64,000 bases of DNA from Spirochaetaceae bacterium (lineage in GTDB: Bacteria > Spirochaetota > Spirochaetia > Treponematales > Rectinemataceae). The notes beneath the pieces are model-generated. The model was not told the DNA's origin and made no database searches. It saw only the letters and a program-made list of their open reading frames with translations. Shown piece after piece: positions 7,916 to 51,262 of this stretch (within the stretch, counting starts at the first letter, position 1; each line of letters starts with the position of its first letter). Where the stretch lies: NCBI GenBank assembly GCA_025355995.1, contig JANXYQ010000069.1, positions 1 through 64,000 on the forward strand. Direction: 5' to 3'. The position numbers were made by a program, and so were the translations under genes.

Positions 7916-9826
7916 ATGCCGCTAAAAGGAAACCCCAGGATAGCCGAGCTCGAGGGCCTCATACGGAAGCACCAGGATCTCTATTACAATCGCCAGAGCG
8001 AGATCAGCGACGCGGAGTTCGACGCCCTGTGGGACGAGCTCGCCGAGCTGGACCCGGACAACGCGGTCTTCGATTCGGTGGGCGCGGACGCCGCGGACGG
8101 CTGGCCCAAGGCTCGGCACCTGATACCTATGGGGAGCCAGGAGAAGGCTTCGGATCCCGAATCGTTCCTCGCGTGGTGCGCGAAGGTCGCCCACCCCGAA
8201 TACCTCGTCCAGTACAAACTGGACGGCGCCAGCCTTGAGCTCCAGTACGAGGCCGGCGCTCTCGTCAGGGCGGTCACCCGCGGAGACGGAGAGGTAGGCG
8301 ATGATATAACGCCTAATGCGTCGAGGATGGCCGGCGTCGCCCTGAGACTGCCCGAAGCCTTTACCGGGGGCGTGCGGGGCGAGGTCCTGCTCCCGAGGGA
8401 GGTCCATGCCCGCAAGTACGCGGACAAGGCCAACTGCCGCAACGCCGCCAACGGCCTGATGAAGCGAAAGGACGGCGTCGGAAGCGAGGACCTCCACGTC
8501 GTCTGCTACGACGCGAGCGGGTCCATCGCGGGCCCCGGCCCGGGGGACGCTGGCGCTTCCCCCTTCGCGGACGAGGCCGAGAAAATGGACTGGCTCGCGC
8601 GCATGGGCTTCGAGGCGACCACTCAGGCCATCCTGTCCCTGCCCGAGGAGGTCGTCGAGTATCGGGCCCGCGTCATGGACAAGCGCCCGAGCCTTCCCTA
8701 CGACATCGACGGATTGGTCGTCAAGGGCCGGGAAATCGACGCCGAGGACATGGCTCGATCGCGGCCGGAGCGCCAGATAGCCTTCAAGTTCAGCCTCGAG
8801 GAGGCCATTTCCGTGCTCCGAGAGGTCGAGTGGAGCGAGTCGGGCGCCAACTACACTCCGATCGGCATCGTCGATCCCGTGCGTCTCGCCGGCACGACCG
8901 TCCAGCGCGCCAACCTCGTCAACACGAACCTGATCCGCGGGATGGGGCTCAAGCTGGGCTCGCGCGTGATCATGACGAAGCGCGGGGAGATCATTCCCAA
9001 GATCGAGGGCCTCGTGGAGAACCCGCCGGGCGCCGCCGAGATCGAGGCTCCCTCCTCCTGTTCCTGCGGGACAACGCTCGTCGACGAGGGAACGCGGCTC
9101 TACTGCCCCAATCCGGCCTGCCCCAAGAAAGTCCAACATAGGCTCGAGAAGTGGCTCTCCGTCCTCGACGTGAGGGACTTCGGCGGCGTCATCGTGGGGA
9201 AGCTACTCTCCTCCGGCCGCGTGCGCTCTGTCCCCGACCTATACGGCCTAGGCGCGGCCGAGCTCGCCCTCTACGAGCGCATGGGAGAGACGCTGGCGCG
9301 CAAGATACTCCGGAACCTCGCCGCCCGAAACGAGGTGAGCCTCGCGCGTTTCGTCGCAGGCTTCGACATCGAGGGCATCGGCGAGCTCAACGTCGAGAAG
9401 GCCGTCGCTGCCGGTTTCGACACGCTGCAGAAGCTCAGGGAGGCCTCGCCCCAAGCCCTCGCGGCCATCGACGGCTTGGGCGACATAACCGCCGCGACCA
9501 TAGCGAAGGGCCTTTCCGACCTCGGGGCGGAGATGGACGCCCTCCTCGCGACGGGCGCGATACGGATCCTTCCGCCGGCCTCCCTCGGACCCCTGTCGGG
9601 CAGGAGTTTCTGTTTCACGGGCGAGCTGTCCTCCATGAAGCGTCCGGACGCGGAGGCTCTCGTTCGAGCTGCGGGCGGCCTGATAAAGTCCTCCGTCACG
9701 AAGGGCCTGTCCTATCTCGTCACCAACGATCCCGCCTCCGGATCCGACAAGAACAAGAAGGCCGCCGCCTACGGGGTCGTGATCATCGATGAAGCGGCAT
9801 TCCTCGCCTTGGTAGGGCAAAAATGA
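7916..9826 (+). CDS. ligA: NAD-dependent DNA ligase
   Basis: A 636-residue ligase for replication and repair, using NAD+ to seal nicks. Domain Ia has the NAD-contacting segment LYYNRQSEISDAEFDALW; the adenylation lysine is Lys101 in YKLDGASLE; TRGDGEVGDD follows. The OB-fold region, a four-cysteine zinc finger (CSCG...CPNPAC), helix-hairpin-helix repeats (GIGELNVEKA, GLGDITAATI) and a C-terminal BRCT domain (GRSFCFTGELSS) are all present in the expected order. Length is slightly below the usual 660-680. ATG 7916 was chosen over an upstream ATG at 7877 because the latter lies in the -35 region. The stop overlaps the next ATG by four bases. Confidence 0.96.
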   Translation: MPLKGNPRIAELEGLIRKHQDLYYNRQSEISDAEFDALWDELAELDPDNAVFDSVGADAADGWPKARHLIPMGSQEKASDPESFLAWCAKVAHPEYLVQYKLDGASLELQYEAGALVRAVTRGDGEVGDDITPNASRMAGVALRLPEAFTGGVRGEVLLPREVHARKYADKANCRNAANGLMKRKDGVGSEDLHVVCYDASGSIAGPGPGDAGASPFADEAEKMDWLARMGFEATTQAILSLPEEVVEYRARVMDKRPSLPYDIDGLVVKGREIDAEDMARSRPERQIAFKFSLEEAISVLREVEWSESGANYTPIGIVDPVRLAGTTVQRANLVNTNLIRGMGLKLGSRVIMTKRGEIIPKIEGLVENPPGAAEIEAPSSCSCGTTLVDEGTRLYCPNPACPKKVQHRLEKWLSVLDVRDFGGVIVGKLLSSGRVRSVPDLYGLGAAELALYERMGETLARKILRNLAARNEVSLARFVAGFDIEGIGELNVEKAVAAGFDTLQKLREASPQALAAIDGLGDITAATIAKGLSDLGAEMDALLATGAIRILPPASLGPLSGRSFCFTGELSSMKRPDAEALVRAAGGLIKSSVTKGLSYLVTNDPASGSDKNKKAAAYGVVIIDEAAFLALVGQK

Positions 9827-10497
9827 GAGGGCTTTTCAGGAAAGGGCAGGGATCGCCGCTGCTCGGCGGCCTAGTCTTCCTCGTGACGATAGCGGTCGCC
9901 GGGTATTTCTGGTTCCAATACAGCGCCTCGTCGCAGAAGCAGCGGATCCTGTATCTCGAGGACCTGTCTACTCGGCTCCGCTCGGAAACCGTGCCCCTGA
10001 AGTTCATGGTCCTCTCCCGCGAGGGCGGAGATGTCAAGGCCAGGCTCAAGCTCTACGACCTGGCCGGCCGGGAGATAGCCTCTATCGAAAAATCCTGGCC
10101 GGGCGGCGAGCTCTATATCGATATGCTCCTCGTCCCCGTCCGTTCCCTCGGCGGTTCCGCCTCGGCGGATTCGTGGCTGGCCTTCCCCTACCGCGTATTC
10201 ACCGACAAGCTCAGCGCGGCGTCGGGAACCCTGCTTTTCGGCTCCTACGATAGCGGAGGCTTCCCCGAAGTCTTGAACGGCGAGAGCTGGAGCGCCAAGG
10301 AGAGGTCGGCCATCTCCGCGGCCTTCTCCTCGGCCATGAAGAGCGCGGCCGCCGGCCTCCCAGCCACCGACGCGGCGAAGGGCGCCTTCGGCTCGGCCGC
10401 CCACGAGGTCTCGAGGCTCGCTCGCTTCGACCTGGGAATCGTGTATAAACTCGTCTGCCGCGTCAAGGGCGGCGTCGAGATCATGGAGGACCAATAA
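9823..10497 (+). CDS. Membrane-anchored protein of unknown function, paralogue A
   Basis: A 224-residue protein coupled to ligA by an ATGA overlap. One N-terminal membrane segment (about residues 13-32) is followed by a short amphipathic or coiled stretch and then a globular, presumably extracytoplasmic domain. I do not recognise a named family. Residues 96-129 (GELYID ... FPYRVFTDK) match, in order and spacing, residues 174-208 of the next gene (KELFID ... IPFKVFSDE), so the two appear to be diverged paralogues. Both end with a helical segment and a final beta-rich strand. Start at 9823 is fixed by the overlap and the immediate hydrophobic segment. Confidence 0.7.
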   Translation: MRGLFRKGQGSPLLGGLVFLVTIAVAGYFWFQYSASSQKQRILYLEDLSTRLRSETVPLKFMVLSREGGDVKARLKLYDLAGREIASIEKSWPGGELYIDMLLVPVRSLGGSASADSWLAFPYRVFTDKLSAASGTLLFGSYDSGGFPEVLNGESWSAKERSAISAAFSSAMKSAAAGLPATDAAKGAFGSAAHEVSRLARFDLGIVYKLVCRVKGGVEIMEDQ

Positions 10498-10499
10498 GC

Positions 10500-11411
10500 A
10501 TGGACGACAGGCTCGGCGCATTCAAGGCTATTCTCTTCGGGCTCTCAGACGCGGCGGCTTTCCTCTTTACGAAGCCATTGGGGTTGGCCGTCCTCGTCTC
10601 GGTACTCCTCCTCGCTGCGGGCGCGAGGCTGTGGACGGCGCTCTCCGACAGGAGGCTCGCGGCCAAGGCGGCCGGGGAGGACTTCGGGCGCGGCGCCGCG
10701 GCGGGCAGGGCCCTGCGCGAGCTGGTCGGGATGGGCGTCAGGGCGGCCGGCGCCCTGCCCGCGATAGCAGGGATCGGAATCGCGCTCGTGCTCCTCGTCG
10801 GCGTCGCGGACGCCACGCGCTCGGTGGACGAGTATATCGCGGGCCGAAAGCGAGTCGCCGAGCTGACCGCAACCGTGCGCAATCTCGAGCGCCGATACAA
10901 GGCGATCGAGGCTAGGATCGACGACGTCAAGGATGGCCGCATCAAGGCGAGCCTCGCGTTCTTCGATTATAAGAGCCCTGCCGTCCCGGCCAAGACCCAG
11001 AGCATCGACATCGCGGGGAAGGAGCTATTCATCGACGCGATTGTATGCAATTTCGACTACTCGGAGATTTCTGCTGGCAAGTCCGTCAACCTCGCGATCC
11101 CCTTCAAGGTCTTCAGCGACGAGGTCAGCGAGTCGGACGGGGTCGCGCTGACCCTCATGGACGAGAAGGGGCTGCCCCTCATGTACAAACGCACGCCTGA
11201 CGAACTCCTCGGCATCGGGAGCGAGGCCTACGAAGCCCGGCTCGCGGAGCTGATGGCCGCCCTGCGCACGGACGAGGCGGCGCGCGGGGCAGGCATCGTT
11301 CGGAGCCTATACGGCGATGCCGTGCACCGAGGGGTCAAGAAGGGCGATTCCTTCGTCGTCTGGGTCGAGCAGTCGGGCGGATTGAGCGTCAAGGACTCCT
11401 CCTCCTTCTAG
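10500..11411 (+). CDS. Membrane-anchored protein of unknown function, paralogue B
   Basis: A 303-residue protein that begins two bases after paralogue A. It has two membrane segments (about 26-42 and 84-104), a coiled-coil stretch (about 112-145, RVAELTATVRNLERR) and a C-terminal globular domain. The latter shares with paralogue A the KxxLxFxDY-like strand, the ELFID strand, the PFKVFSDE strand and the closing strand near the end. No enzyme motif is visible. The geometry suggests an inner-membrane scaffold or sensor with a beta-rich outer domain. It probably works together with paralogue A, given adjacency and shared fold. Confidence 0.7.
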   Translation: MDDRLGAFKAILFGLSDAAAFLFTKPLGLAVLVSVLLLAAGARLWTALSDRRLAAKAAGEDFGRGAAAGRALRELVGMGVRAAGALPAIAGIGIALVLLVGVADATRSVDEYIAGRKRVAELTATVRNLERRYKAIEARIDDVKDGRIKASLAFFDYKSPAVPAKTQSIDIAGKELFIDAIVCNFDYSEISAGKSVNLAIPFKVFSDEVSESDGVALTLMDEKGLPLMYKRTPDELLGIGSEAYEARLAELMAALRTDEAARGAGIVRSLYGDAVHRGVKKGDSFVVWVEQSGGLSVKDSSSF

Positions 11412-40332: not shown

Positions 40333-40380
40333 GTAGGGTTCCTCCTCCTTTATGATACCGCCGAACTCTGGCCTTTTTCT

Positions 40381-41976
40381 ATGGCTTCGGCTATATTCCA
40401 AATTGTGACATGCGCGCAATGCGGCGAACGCGAGGCTATCGTCTTCATAAGGCGGAGCGGCGGCAGCTCAGAGGGCTGCGATATAGTACTTTGCGATTCC
40501 TGCGCCAAGCGGCGCGGCATTATCGCCGGTAAAGGCGGCCTCGAGCTCAATATAGACGACCTGATCGGCGTTGGGCTCGGCAACGAGCGCGTACGCGAGA
40601 GGCCCCCCGCCTGTCCGGGCTGCGGCCTCGAGCTAGGCGAGTTGCGCCGCGAGGGAAGGCTCGGTTGCGCTCGCTGCGCGGACGCTTTCTCGGAGGAGCT
40701 TGCCACCGCCGTGGGCCGCCTGGCTTGCCACGACCCCAAGGCCGACTCGCTCGCCTTCGCCCCGGCGCGGGTGGGCCTTCCGCCCGGGACCGCGAGGCTC
40801 CGGCGCGAACTCGAATCCGCGCTCGATTCCGAGGACTACGAGACCGCTGCCGAGCTTCGCGACGAACTCTCGCATATGAGGGGCGAGGGAGAGGACGCGC
40901 CTCGGGCCGCCGATTTCCCGGATTTCCCCTACTCTCCTTTCTCGCTTTCAGGTTCGAGCGGTCAGGACGACGACGTCGCGCTGCTCACCTCGGGCAGGGT
41001 GTACCGCGATATCGCGGGCGAGCCCTTCCCGGGCTCGCCGCGGGGCCCGGCCGCGCCGTCTCGAGCCATCCTCCTCGATCGTTTCCTGTCGCTCGGAGCA
41101 TGGCGGAGTAGGACCATGGCCGATCTCGGCCCCGTCGGGAGGAGATCCCTCTCGGAGCGAGGCATAGTCCCCCGGGGCTACGCGGCCGACGACGAGGCGG
41201 TAGTGCTTTCGGAGTCTGGATTCAGCACCTATGCCCTGCTCGACGAGGGAGACCACCTCCGCGTGAGGACGATGGCTCCGGGCCTCGATGCGGCGGCCGC
41301 GTTGGGTCCCGGCCTCGCCCTCGCCGACCGCCTCGGACGGGATATGGATTTCGCCAGCCGGCCCGGGATAGGCTGGGTTTGCGCGCGCATCGCCGATTGC
41401 GGCCTCGGTTGCTCGCTTTCAGCGACGGTCCACATCCCGGCGCTGACCGCAGCGGGATTGAGGGACCGCCTTTTCCGCGCCCTGATGTCGGACGGCCTGG
41501 CGGTGCGCGGCTTCTATTCCTCGAGCGAGGAATCGGCCGGATCCCTCTACGAAATCGGGTTCGAGGCCAGCATGGCCGGATCCGTCCTCGATCTCGCCGG
41601 CTCCTTTACCGCGGCAGTCGCGAAGATAGTGGCCGCGGAGCGCAGGGCGAGGACCGAGATCGCAGAACGGGGGCGCGAGGCCCTCGTCGACGCGGAGGGC
41701 AGGGCTTTCGGCATAACGCGATACTTCGGCTCCGTGGGCATGGAGGAGGCGGCCTCCCTGGTTTCCGTGCTCCGTCTCGCCGCTCTCAGGGGTTCGCTCC
41801 CGGGAGCCGACCATAGGATCCTCGGCGGACTGCTCGCGGCCCTCGGCCCGGGCTCGATAACCCTCCTCTCCGGCCTTCCGGAGATACCTCCAGCGACGGC
41901 TCTGGACGCTTATAGGGCCGCCGCTGTAAAGCGCGCGCTCTTCGGCGCCGATTATGAAGCAGAGGGGGGCGCCTGA
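40381..41976 (+). CDS. Fused McsA-like / McsB-like protein (zinc-UVR adaptor joined to a degenerate arginine-kinase domain)
   Basis: A 531-residue protein. Residues 1-166 look like McsA: zinc pairs C11/C14 with C38/C41, and C78/C81 with C96/C99, then a UVR motif at about 139-166. Residues about 195-528 follow McsB order: VLSESGFSTYALLDEGDHLRVRTMAPG, RPGIGWVCA, SATVHIPAL, LAVRGFYS, FGITRYFGS. Catalytic motifs are eroded: the SSRxRLARN region reads TSGRVYRD, CPTNxGTG reads CARIADCGLG (Cys334 kept), and the RGxYGEGSEAxGNxFQ loop reads RGFYSSSEESAGSLYE. In Bacillus, McsA and McsB are separate and mark proteins for ClpC-ClpP. ATG 40381 lacks a ribosome site; TATGAT lies at 40351-40356. The stop overlaps clpC (TGATG). 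Confidence 0.85.
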   Translation: MASAIFQIVTCAQCGEREAIVFIRRSGGSSEGCDIVLCDSCAKRRGIIAGKGGLELNIDDLIGVGLGNERVRERPPACPGCGLELGELRREGRLGCARCADAFSEELATAVGRLACHDPKADSLAFAPARVGLPPGTARLRRELESALDSEDYETAAELRDELSHMRGEGEDAPRAADFPDFPYSPFSLSGSSGQDDDVALLTSGRVYRDIAGEPFPGSPRGPAAPSRAILLDRFLSLGAWRSRTMADLGPVGRRSLSERGIVPRGYAADDEAVVLSESGFSTYALLDEGDHLRVRTMAPGLDAAAALGPGLALADRLGRDMDFASRPGIGWVCARIADCGLGCSLSATVHIPALTAAGLRDRLFRALMSDGLAVRGFYSSSEESAGSLYEIGFEASMAGSVLDLAGSFTAAVAKIVAAERRARTEIAERGREALVDAEGRAFGITRYFGSVGMEEAASLVSVLRLAALRGSLPGADHRILGGLLAALGPGSITLLSGLPEIPPATALDAYRAAAVKRALFGADYEAEGGA

Positions 41977-44504
41977 TGTTCAAGGGACTTACCCATCGCG
42001 CCCAGCGCGTGCTGACCGTCCTCGCCCAGGAAGAGGCGAAGCGGACGAGGTCGGACCAGGTCCTTCCCGAGCACGTGCTTCTCGCGATAATAAAAGAGGG
42101 CGAGGGCATAGGCTTCAAGGCCCTCCGAAGCCTGAAAATCGATACCCTGGAGCTTCGCGACGAGCTCGAACGATCCGTCGAGAAGCGCCGCTCCGGCACG
42201 GTCATCGGCGACCTTCCCCTCTCGAGGCGCGCCAGGTCGCTACTCGAGGGCGCCGCGGAGGAAGCCAATATGTCCGGCTCGGACTACATCGGCACCGAGC
42301 ATTTCGTCGTGGCGGCCGCGCGCGAGCAGGGCTCCGCCCTCGAGGTCCACCTCGCCCGCATCGGCGTCTACTACGAACAGCTAAGGGCCGCAGTACGCCT
42401 CCTTCGCGAGCCCCCCGCCGAGGAGCGCAAGGACCGTTCCCTTCCCCGCGCGGACGCGCGGGCGGATGCCCGCACCGACCCGAAGTCTGAGGGCAAGGCC
42501 GCTCCCGGGGGGCGGACCCCGCTGCTCGACGAGTTCGCCCGCGACCTTACGGCTATGGCCCGCGAGGGCAAGCTCGATCCCGTGGTGGGCAGGGAACGCG
42601 AGATCGGCCGCGTGATCCGCATCCTCTCGCGCCGGACCAAGAACAATCCCGTCCTCGTCGGGGAGCCGGGCGTCGGCAAGACCGCCGTCGTCGAGGCCCT
42701 AGCGCAGCGCATCGCCCGCGGCGCGGCTCCCGAGGCCCTGGCCCGGAAGCGCATCCTGGCGCTCGACCTCGCCGCCGTCGTCGCGGGCACAAAGTACCGC
42801 GGCGAGTTCGAGGAGCGGCTGAAGCGAATCATGAAGGAGATAGCCCTCTCCGGCGGCATCATACTGTTCATCGACGAGATCCATACCGTCGTCGGCGCGG
42901 GAAGCGCCGAGGGCACCATCGACGCCTCCAACATGCTCAAGCCGGCCCTCTCCCGCGGGGAAGTTCAGTGCATCGGGGCGACTACCTTGGACGAGTACCG
43001 CAAGCGCTTCGAGAAGGACGCCGCCCTCGAGCGACGCTTCCAGTCCGTCCTCATCGAGGAGCCGGGTCCCTTGGAGGCGATAGAGATCCTTGAGGGCGTA
43101 AAAGCCCGCTACGAGGAATTCCACGGCGTCATCTACACGCGCCGCGCGGTCGAGGCCGCCGTCGAGCTCGCCCGCCGCTACGTCTCCGACAGGTTCATGC
43201 CGGACAAGGCCATAGACCTGCTCGACGAGGCCGGGGCCCTCAAGAAGGTCGGGAATCCCGCGCGGCCGCCGGAGCTCGCCGAGGTTGAGAGCGAGCTCCG
43301 GCGCTTGAACGAGGACAAGCTGGCCCTCGTCTCGACACAGAATTACGAGCGCGCCGCCGAGGTGCGCGATCGCGTCCGCAAGCTGAAGGTCCGGCTCGAG
43401 GCCCTGAAATCCGAGTGGGAGGAATCCAGCCGCGACGATCGTGCGAGCGTCACCGAGGAAGAGGTTCGCGAAGTGCTTTCCGAGGCCACGGGAATTCCGC
43501 TCGCGCGGCTCGCCGAAGGCGACTCGGAGCGCCTCCTCCACCTGGAGAGGGAACTCCACAAGCGCGTCATCGGACAGGACGAGGCCATTGGGACCATCGC
43601 CTCCGCCATCCGCCGCTCGCGTTCCGGGGTCTCCGACGGGCGGCGCCCGATGGGCTCCTTCATATTCCTGGGTCCCACGGGCGTGGGCAAGACCCTCGTC
43701 GCCAAGAGCCTCGCGGAATACCTGTTCGGGTCGGACGAGGCCCTCCTGCGGATCGACATGTCCGATTTCATGGAGAGGCACAACGCCTCGCGACTCGTAG
43801 GGTCGCCTCCCGGCTACGTCGGCTACGACGAGGGAGGCATGCTCACCGAACGCGTAAGGCGGCATCCATATAGCGTCATTCTCTTCGACGAGATCGAGAA
43901 GGCCCACCCGGAGGTTTTCAACCTCCTCCTCCAGCTCCTCGAGGAAGGAGAGATACGGGACAACCTGGGCCATACGGTCAGTTTCCGCACGAGCGTAGTG
44001 ATCATGACGAGCAACGCCGGAGCCCGCGAGATATCGACGAAGGGCCTCGGTTTCAGGCCCGATGAGCGCATGCTTTCCTACTCCGAGATCAAGAACTCGG
44101 CCCTCGCGGAGCTTAAGCGCCGCTTCAATCCCGAATTCGTCAACAGGGTGGACGATATCGTCGTATTCAAGCCCCTCGACAAGGGTGAGGCGCGGCAGGT
44201 CCTGGAGCTCCTCCTGGCGGAGCTCTCGAGACGCCTGGGCGAGAGGGGCATCGCCCTCGAGGTGAAGGAGGCGGCGAAGGCCTACCTAGCCGAGAAGGGC
44301 TACGATCCCGCCTATGGCGCGAGGCCGATGCGCCGGATCATCCAGTCCGAGGTCGAGGACCCGCTTTCGGCGCGGATACTCGAGGGGGAGTTGCCGCCCG
44401 GCAGCTCGGCGGTCGTGGACAAGAAGGGCGATGCCCTGGCGGTCAGGGCCAAGCGCGCCGTCGCGCCCTCCCCGAAGCAGCAGATCGCGTCGCCCAAGTC
44501 CTGA
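41976..44504 (+). CDS. clpC: ATP-dependent Clp protease ATP-binding subunit ClpC
   Basis: An 842-residue Hsp100 unfoldase. An N-terminal double Clp domain (1-145), AAA1 with Walker A GEPGVGKT and [10 protein letters not shown], a middle UVR-containing coiled coil ([23 protein letters not shown]), AAA2 with GPTGVGKT and [13 protein letters not shown], and a C-terminal D2-small domain. The STKGLGFRP loop fits the ClpP-binding tripeptide position. ClpP is not in the window. The UVR region is the site where McsA/McsB-type partners act in Bacillus, consistent with the gene fused in front of it. The order has no CtsR. Confidence 0.95.
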
Positions 44505-49966: not shown

Positions 49967-51262
49967 ATGACCCCGCTCCAGTCCCGGCGCATCCCGCGAA
50001 CCGTCGTCGTCCTCCTGTTGGCCTCCTGGGCAGTCTCAGGCGCCTTGCTGGCTTCCTGCGCCGCGAGGGACAAGCCAAGTGTCGCCGTAAAGCGCGAGCC
50101 GCTCTTCGCCCTCGGCTACGGTCCGGCGGAGGACCAGCTCGACCTTTTCCAGATCGACGGAAGCCAGGCCCCCTTGAAGACCTGCTTGACGATGAGGGAG
50201 GGAATCTTCTACATCGCCAACGGCGCGGGAGCGAAGGTGGTCAGGCTGACCTCCTTCGGGGTACCCCTCTCCATGATCTACAATTCCGAGAAGAACCCAG
50301 AGCCCATAGTCCTCAAGCCCGTCCCGGCGAAGCCGGCGTCGGGCGAAGCCGTCTCCTCCAAGGATTCGGGGGGCCTCGGCCGCAACGCCGTTCCCTATCC
50401 CTTCAGGTCAGTCGGGGAGATCGCCGTCGATTCGAGCCAGAATGCGTACGTCGAAGACCGCCTCCCCACGGAGCGGAGGGTCCAGGACAAGGACTCGGGC
50501 GCCATCCTCGACCACGTCGTGCTGCGCTTCGACAAGGACGGCCAATTCATCGATTATCTCGGACAGGAAGGCATCGGAGGAACGCCCTTCCCGTATATCG
50601 TGGGTGTTTATATCGTAGCCTCCGACGACTGCGTAGTCGTCTCGATGACACAGACAGGATGGCTCGTGCATTGGTTCGATAAAAGCGGAGTCCTCGTCAG
50701 CGCCCTCAAGCTCCGGCGCGAGGACCTGCCCATGCCGGACAAGGGACAGGGCCTGATCGGTTCGCTCGACAAGATCGTGCCGGATGTAGGGGGAAGGTAT
50801 ATCCTGATCAAGATCGATTACTATAAGGAAGCGCTGGATCCGGCCACCAAGGCCTCGGCGGGCGTGGAGTTCGCGAGCTCCTGGACCTACCGAATGGACG
50901 TGAAAGACGGCAAGTACGCCGACCGCTGGCAGATTCGCGCGATCGAGAAGACCACCAAGAGCCCGGACGGGCAAGCCGTTAAGTACTCGCGGATTCCCCA
51001 GCTGCTCGGGGCGGCGGGCAAGGCTTTTTTCCTGATGTACGCCGACGACGACGGAAGGACCTATGTCGCCACCTACGACCGCATTACGCGGGAAATGACC
51101 AAGTACAGCATCGACATCTCCACGGACGAGCTTTTCTACAACGCCTATTATCTTTCCCGGGACGGCGTGCTCTGCGCCCTCCTCGGAACGAAGTACGAGG
51201 CCAGGGTCGTCTGGTGGCGATTCGACAAGCTCATCGGGCCGAGTTCGGGCATCGTAAAATGA
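49967..51262 (+). CDS. Lipoprotein of probable beta-propeller fold
   Basis: A 431-residue protein with a lipoprotein signal (hydrophobic LLLASWAVSGALLASC, lipobox LASC, Cys31). The body is beta-rich, with repeated motifs where a short strand precedes a hydrophilic turn and a hydrophobic strand (KVVRLTSFGVPL, HVVLRFDKDGQFIDYLG, WLVHWFDKSGVLVSALKL), the pattern of NHL or similar propeller repeats. No catalytic residues are apparent. Similar lipoproteins are known in treponemes, but I cannot name an orthologue with confidence. It overlaps the next gene by four bases (ATGA). Confidence 0.75.
   Translation: MTPLQSRRIPRTVVVLLLASWAVSGALLASCAARDKPSVAVKREPLFALGYGPAEDQLDLFQIDGSQAPLKTCLTMREGIFYIANGAGAKVVRLTSFGVPLSMIYNSEKNPEPIVLKPVPAKPASGEAVSSKDSGGLGRNAVPYPFRSVGEIAVDSSQNAYVEDRLPTERRVQDKDSGAILDHVVLRFDKDGQFIDYLGQEGIGGTPFPYIVGVYIVASDDCVVVSMTQTGWLVHWFDKSGVLVSALKLRREDLPMPDKGQGLIGSLDKIVPDVGGRYILIKIDYYKEALDPATKASAGVEFASSWTYRMDVKDGKYADRWQIRAIEKTTKSPDGQAVKYSRIPQLLGAAGKAFFLMYADDDGRTYVATYDRITREMTKYSIDISTDELFYNAYYLSRDGVLCALLGTKYEARVVWWRFDKLIGPSSGIVK

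Follow-up and report, generated by a model that had tools for sequence, protein, structure and literature searches.

A fused McsA–McsB protein with a putative pseudokinase half, encoded directly ahead of clpC in a spirochaete

The window analyzed here, a 64,000-nucleotide stretch of contig JANXYQ010000069.1 from the Spirochaetaceae bacterium assembly GCA_025355995.1, encodes directly ahead of clpC a single protein in which McsA and McsB are joined. The reading that we favor, and consider reasonably probable, is that the McsB half is a guanidino kinase without catalytic activity and that the fused protein serves as a dedicated adaptor or activator of the co-translated ClpC. The parts of this reading carry their own weights: classical arginine kinase activity has very probably been lost in the fusion, to judge from the aligned sequences, and binding to ClpC with an adaptor or activator role is somewhat probable. 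We found no dedicated paper on spirochaete McsB or on a McsA–McsB fusion in the open-access literature; an earlier description elsewhere is possible.

A single open frame joins McsA and McsB upstream of clpC

One open frame (40381-41976, +) carries an McsA-like part, followed after a short linker by the full McsB fold (Table 1), and both parts have Pfam and PDB matches (given below), in agreement with the preliminary description of McsA and McsB in one protein. Because the same in-frame fusion is found in eight genomes, a sequencing or assembly artefact, or chance, is ruled out as its source. The overlap of one base with clpC also stands, the final A of the stop codon TGA (41974-41976) being the first base of the clpC ATG at 41976. 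The length of 531 residues that was first given to the protein, counted from ATG 40381, holds for the frame and not for the start. GTG 40405, which yields 523 residues, is probably the true start, because the region around 40381 aligns to a conserved non-coding block in the relatives, where one (G015) has a TAG and another (G003) has no in-frame ATG. The likely starts of the relatives' genes (ATG or GTG, two codons ahead of the first cysteine) align with GTG 40405. The conserved block is probably a promoter lying very near the start of mcsAB, with a very short leader; in several relatives a TATA-like stretch within the block, about 10 bases ahead of the probable start, points to an mcsAB mRNA that is nearly leaderless.

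Table 1. Features of the mcsAB–clpC locus (positions in the window; residues in 531-residue numbering)
Feature	Position	Strand	Basis or remark
Conserved block upstream of mcsAB	40369..40404	+	Alignment of seven family members
mcsAB fusion gene	40405..41976	+	Probable start GTG 40405, 523 aa; stop TGA 41974-41976
First zinc finger (C11, C14, C38, C41)	40411..40503	+	Invariant in eight fused homologues; McsA match 8wtb_B
Second zinc finger (C78, C81, C96, C99)	40612..40677	+	Equivalent to the McsA finger contacting McsB in 8gqd
UVR motif, residues 139-166	40795..40878	+	Pfam PF02151, 3.7e-6
McsB-type guanidino-kinase fold with C-terminal helical domain, residues 177-524	40909..41952	+	AlphaFold2 model; structure match
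G290, aligned with catalytic Glu E121 (second E of NEEDH)	41248..41250	+	Alignments
R336, aligned with catalytic Cys C167 (CPTN loop)	41386..41388	+	Alignments
S381, aligned with catalytic Glu E212 (YGEGSE lid loop)	41521..41523	+	Alignments
clpC	41976..44504	+	Clp_N, two AAA modules, UVR-type M-domain; 1-base overlap with mcsAB

The McsA half keeps both zinc fingers

The eight zinc cysteines noted at the outset are invariant in an alignment of the eight full-length fused proteins and are the best conserved feature of the fusion within the family; zinc binding is predicted. The UVR motif was likewise correctly recognized in the window (26.9 bits for PF02151 against a cut-off of 21.5), and is unrecognizable in four of the eight aligned fusions (G002, G004, G009 and G018). 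Among PDB sequences the McsA part matches 8wtb_B (E 8e-12), and it scores 50 bits with the NCBIfam McsA model, far under the equivalog cut-off of 210.

In the known system, the second McsA zinc finger touches McsB and orients the McsB catalytic cysteine (PMC12467219). With the kinase dead, this activating role would have no target, and the fingers are still invariant; hence it is probably the intramolecular McsA–McsB contact itself that is selected. The conservation of the cysteines could also be read as the mark of a zinc or redox sensor that governs ClpC activity or clpC translation and delivers no substrate, with the translational overlap setting the stoichiometry of the two proteins. We regard this as unlikely, since it leaves the retention of a whole McsB fold across the class unexplained, and since the overlap is not universal: in one member of the family (G009, locus L036) mcsAB does not directly overlap clpC.

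The McsB half is a maintained guanidino-kinase fold

That the C-terminal half is related to guanidino kinases is clear from the Pfam match to ATP-gua_Ptrans (PF00217, residues 245-422, 1.4e-18) and from the match of the McsB part to 6fh1 among PDB sequences (6e-26); scores with the NCBIfam McsB models (93-97 bits) lie far under their equivalog cut-offs of 385-500. The McsB fold proposed in the preliminary description is found again in an AlphaFold2 model of the fusion (mean pLDDT 85, pTM 0.79; input alignment of 49 rows, fused and separate rows mixed), whose predicted McsB part matches the crystal structures 6tv6_B and 6fh1_A with Z 37.4 and rmsd 2.4 over 340-342 residues, the C-terminal domain included. 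Foldseek agrees with this match. No second PF00217 protein occurs in the window's 4.5-Mb genome, and thus no separate mcsB exists elsewhere in it.

Ratios of dN to dS (NG86) for the fusion between genomes come to about 0.32-0.36, values that are rough because dS is high (>1), compared with 0.14-0.16 when Treponema-type mcsB genes are paired and about 0.2-0.28 for the remaining unfused pairs. As estimated from these ratios, mcsAB and the unfused pseudokinase mcsB genes are under purifying selection. With the McsB fold intact and dN/dS well below 1, the fusion therefore appears as a maintained fold minus its catalytic set.

Catalytic positions are lost and unconstrained

We aligned the window's McsB with 59 other spirochaete McsBs and with the G. 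stearothermophilus McsB of the PDB match, anchoring residue numbers on the published positions of C167, E212 and R337; the roles of the catalytic residues are those established in work on arginine kinases and McsB. The changes to the kinase motifs that were first noticed by eye prove real in this alignment. Both catalytic glutamates and the catalytic cysteine are replaced (Table 1), as are two phosphate-binding arginines (R28 by S204, R176 by S345), so that the window retains R30, R125 and R207, three of the eight catalytic residues. Between one and four of the eight are retained in the nine family members, in which position 121 reads I/T/E/G/D/D/A/D/G and position 212 reads T/D/S/E/G/S/A/S/S; given this variation, both positions are unconstrained. 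Position 167 is arginine in six of the nine.

These data bear on the possibility that the protein is still an active kinase, either with rearranged catalytic residues or with another guanidino or protein substrate. The intact predicted fold and the three retained arginines are in keeping with it, and the recurrent arginine at position 167 makes some replacement chemistry conceivable. We nevertheless consider an active enzyme very improbable: both carboxylates that position the guanidinium group are missing, along with the cysteine and arginines 28 and 176; no motif of a YwlE-type phosphatase was found in the window's genome; and the catalytic positions differ even among close homologues, with no other pocket residue turning invariant. 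Indeed, no alternative invariant set of pocket residues exists among the aligned fused homologues, and this, together with the variation at the catalytic positions, argues against a re-specialized kinase. Of the two roles proposed in the preliminary description, then, a pseudokinase serving ClpC is the one retained, and a kinase of altered specificity is set aside. Since the protein is a McsB homologue in fold and fails in the catalytic features, the label "protein arginine kinase" is unwarranted for the fusion.

Catalytic loss extends across the class

The erosion of the catalytic residues had been presented as a trait of this fusion. The erosion is borne out, and its restriction to the fusion is not. 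C167 is present in none of 40 McsBs of the window's class, and none of the 40 sampled has both E121 and E212, even when Asp is allowed at 212; this class set includes a genome (G074) that we take to be the Treponema denticola ATCC 35405 chromosome. Among 20 McsBs from beyond the class, 6 have both glutamates and only two have all eight residues, those of genomes G405 (family f33) and G427 (family f42). A DNA-level search for a strict YwlE active-site pattern (CTGNTCRSP) hits 2 of 393 genomes of the phylum, again G405 and G427 (loci L114 and L137); the strict-YwlE genomes are thus exactly those whose McsB is catalytically complete. As the ClpC tree places these two as sisters, they count as one McsB–YwlE association, not two. 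The window's genome has no strict CTGNTCRSP loop, and its sole low-molecular-weight protein tyrosine phosphatase (LMW-PTP) has a loop, CVHNSARSQ, of the kind typical for arsenate reductases. The mere presence of an LMW-PTP was dropped as a proxy for YwlE, most matches having arsenate-reductase-like loops.

Two further markers proved of little use. The pArg-receptor residue R337 is missing in every sampled spirochaete McsB, and because this includes the kinase-complete ones we dropped it. CtsR is absent from the window's genome, as stated in the preliminary description, and equally from all 393 Spirochaetota genomes, so that its absence from the window is uninformative. Around E212, the McsB lid loop is shorter or missing altogether in several families beyond the class (L085 in f30; L086-L087 in f35; L082-L084 in f52 and f45), which looks like an independent way of arriving at a dead kinase.

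By these comparisons, catalytic erosion is class-wide and not particular to the fusion, a predicted pseudokinase McsB being the rule across the class. With the same loss in most spirochaetes, ClpC is probably steered there without an arginine-phosphate tag. A still broader history strikes us as an even proposition: that in most Spirochaetota retaining McsA/McsB the pair regulates ClpC without kinase activity, the arginine kinase being ancestral, its catalytic residues having been lost more than once together with YwlE, and one family then having fused the subunits into a single obligate pseudokinase adaptor.

The fusion is confined to one family and followed the catalytic loss

All eight complete McsAB loci of the window's family, whose members are uncultured spirochaetes, are fused in frame (G000, G001, G002, G003, G004, G009, G015 and G018). 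In the panel loci of other families, mcsA and mcsB are separate and stand in the same order ahead of clpC. Bearers of the fusion found in a scan of named genomes are "Spirochaetaceae bacterium UBA1306" and isolate GL140_3_metabat_44, both within the eight (G001 and G004). In the ClpC tree, which took in only family sequences long enough to place (one of them, G017, with a contig-truncated McsAB), the six family sequences group together as a single clade (100/100), with family f4, whose genes are separate, as its sister (100/100). Because catalytic loss is class-wide and the fusion is limited to one ClpC clade, the loss came first and the fusion later; on the loci compared, only the fusion is peculiar to the window's family, the catalytic loss appearing older and wider.

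Linkage to ClpC and a possible mode of action

Every one of the nine family genomes in which McsAB was detected also encodes an orthologue of ClpC (66-88% identity for the eight besides the window's own), and the 20 family genomes without such a ClpC are also without any PF00217 protein. Linkage and order with clpC are the same in most panel genomes, and the window's genome encodes two ClpP-family proteins. In G010, clpC is present with no recognizable mcsAB adjoining it (L122, G010:C155:1-14000; clpC at 8001-10589, -), from which it follows that ClpC can do without McsAB. A genus-mate of G010, G018, has the fusion.

The case of G010, the disappearance of the UVR motif from several members, and a faster evolution of the fusion than of ClpC (dN/dS 0.36 vs 0.13 for the same genome pair) could indicate a remnant in decay that is heading for loss, in which the McsB half is merely the structural tail of a zinc-finger protein. 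This, too, we hold to be unlikely: the fold is complete to its C-terminal domain, with zero frameshifts in eight genomes, and dN/dS is well below 1. Moreover, a dead McsB is retained throughout the class, which marks it as ancient rather than transient.

If the fusion is instead a dedicated ClpC adaptor or activator, as we prefer, its two zinc fingers would hold, or respond to, the McsB fold of the same chain, and the protein would dock on the N-terminal region of ClpC with no arginine phosphorylation involved. Once docked, it could bring substrates in or end the resting state of ClpC without pArg. The window's ClpC retains equivalents of the pArg-pocket residues T7, E32 and E106, and in Treponemataceae the pocket has Ser for Thr; a loss of the pArg pockets was thus not seen. 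The reference for this comparison was a sequence taken as the B. subtilis ClpC N-domain. Its E32 and E106 motifs match primers printed in PMC12583610. McsA/McsB binds the N-terminal domain of ClpC, where pArg substrates dock in two pockets, and pArg releases the resting state that the same pockets also hold (PMC12583610). Because of this second service of the pockets, their retention, which a working pArg system would equally account for, does not discriminate between the readings.

As to the surroundings, a gene of NFACT/RqcH type (PF05833, PF05670; 44514-46022, -) lies convergent to clpC and is followed by secA, an order kept in families f1 and f4, and in both families an NMT1-type ABC transporter lies upstream of mcsAB-clpC. 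Since RqcH acts in ribosome rescue, the neighborhood may be one of proteostasis. Farther on, a frame at 49967-51262 (+), divergent from an M23 peptidase gene, encodes a predicted lipoprotein-like protein of 431 residues with no Pfam match.

Significance and comparison with known systems

In Bacillus, kinase and adaptor are one enzyme, and whatever help McsA/McsB gives to ClpC apart from pArg marking is hard to separate there. Spirochaetes appear to have made this separation by themselves; if the system is indeed a kinase-free regulator, the adaptor role of McsAB is separable from arginine phosphorylation. A naturally occurring pseudokinase joined to its zinc-finger partner would offer a single purifiable protein for probing kinase-free control of ClpC, and annotations of "protein arginine kinase" in Treponema and other spirochaetes are probably functionally wrong.

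The McsA part resembles the McsA activator (8wtb, 8gqd), which likewise has two CxxC...CxxC zinc fingers and a UVR motif; unlike separate McsA, it is joined to McsB, and UVR is gone in some fused homologues. The McsB part shares with the McsBs of B. subtilis, G. stearothermophilus and S. aureus (6tv6, 6fh1, 8gqd) the same two-domain fold of about 340 residues (Z 37, for the predicted model), 23-25% identity to the first two, and the gene order upstream of clpC. It differs from them in being without both catalytic glutamates, the cysteine and two arginines, in its union with McsA, and in a genome without CtsR or a YwlE motif. Closer at hand, the unfused McsA/McsB of other Spirochaetia, Treponema included, likewise form an operon with clpC and have a McsB without the catalytic set, but their mcsA and mcsB are separate, often overlapping genes, the fusion being found only in the window's family. 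Finally, Chlamydia likewise keeps McsA/McsB outside the Firmicutes, together with a pArg-reading ClpC (PMC10128030, PMC11708050); its McsB, unlike that of the window, is regarded as a putative active kinase.
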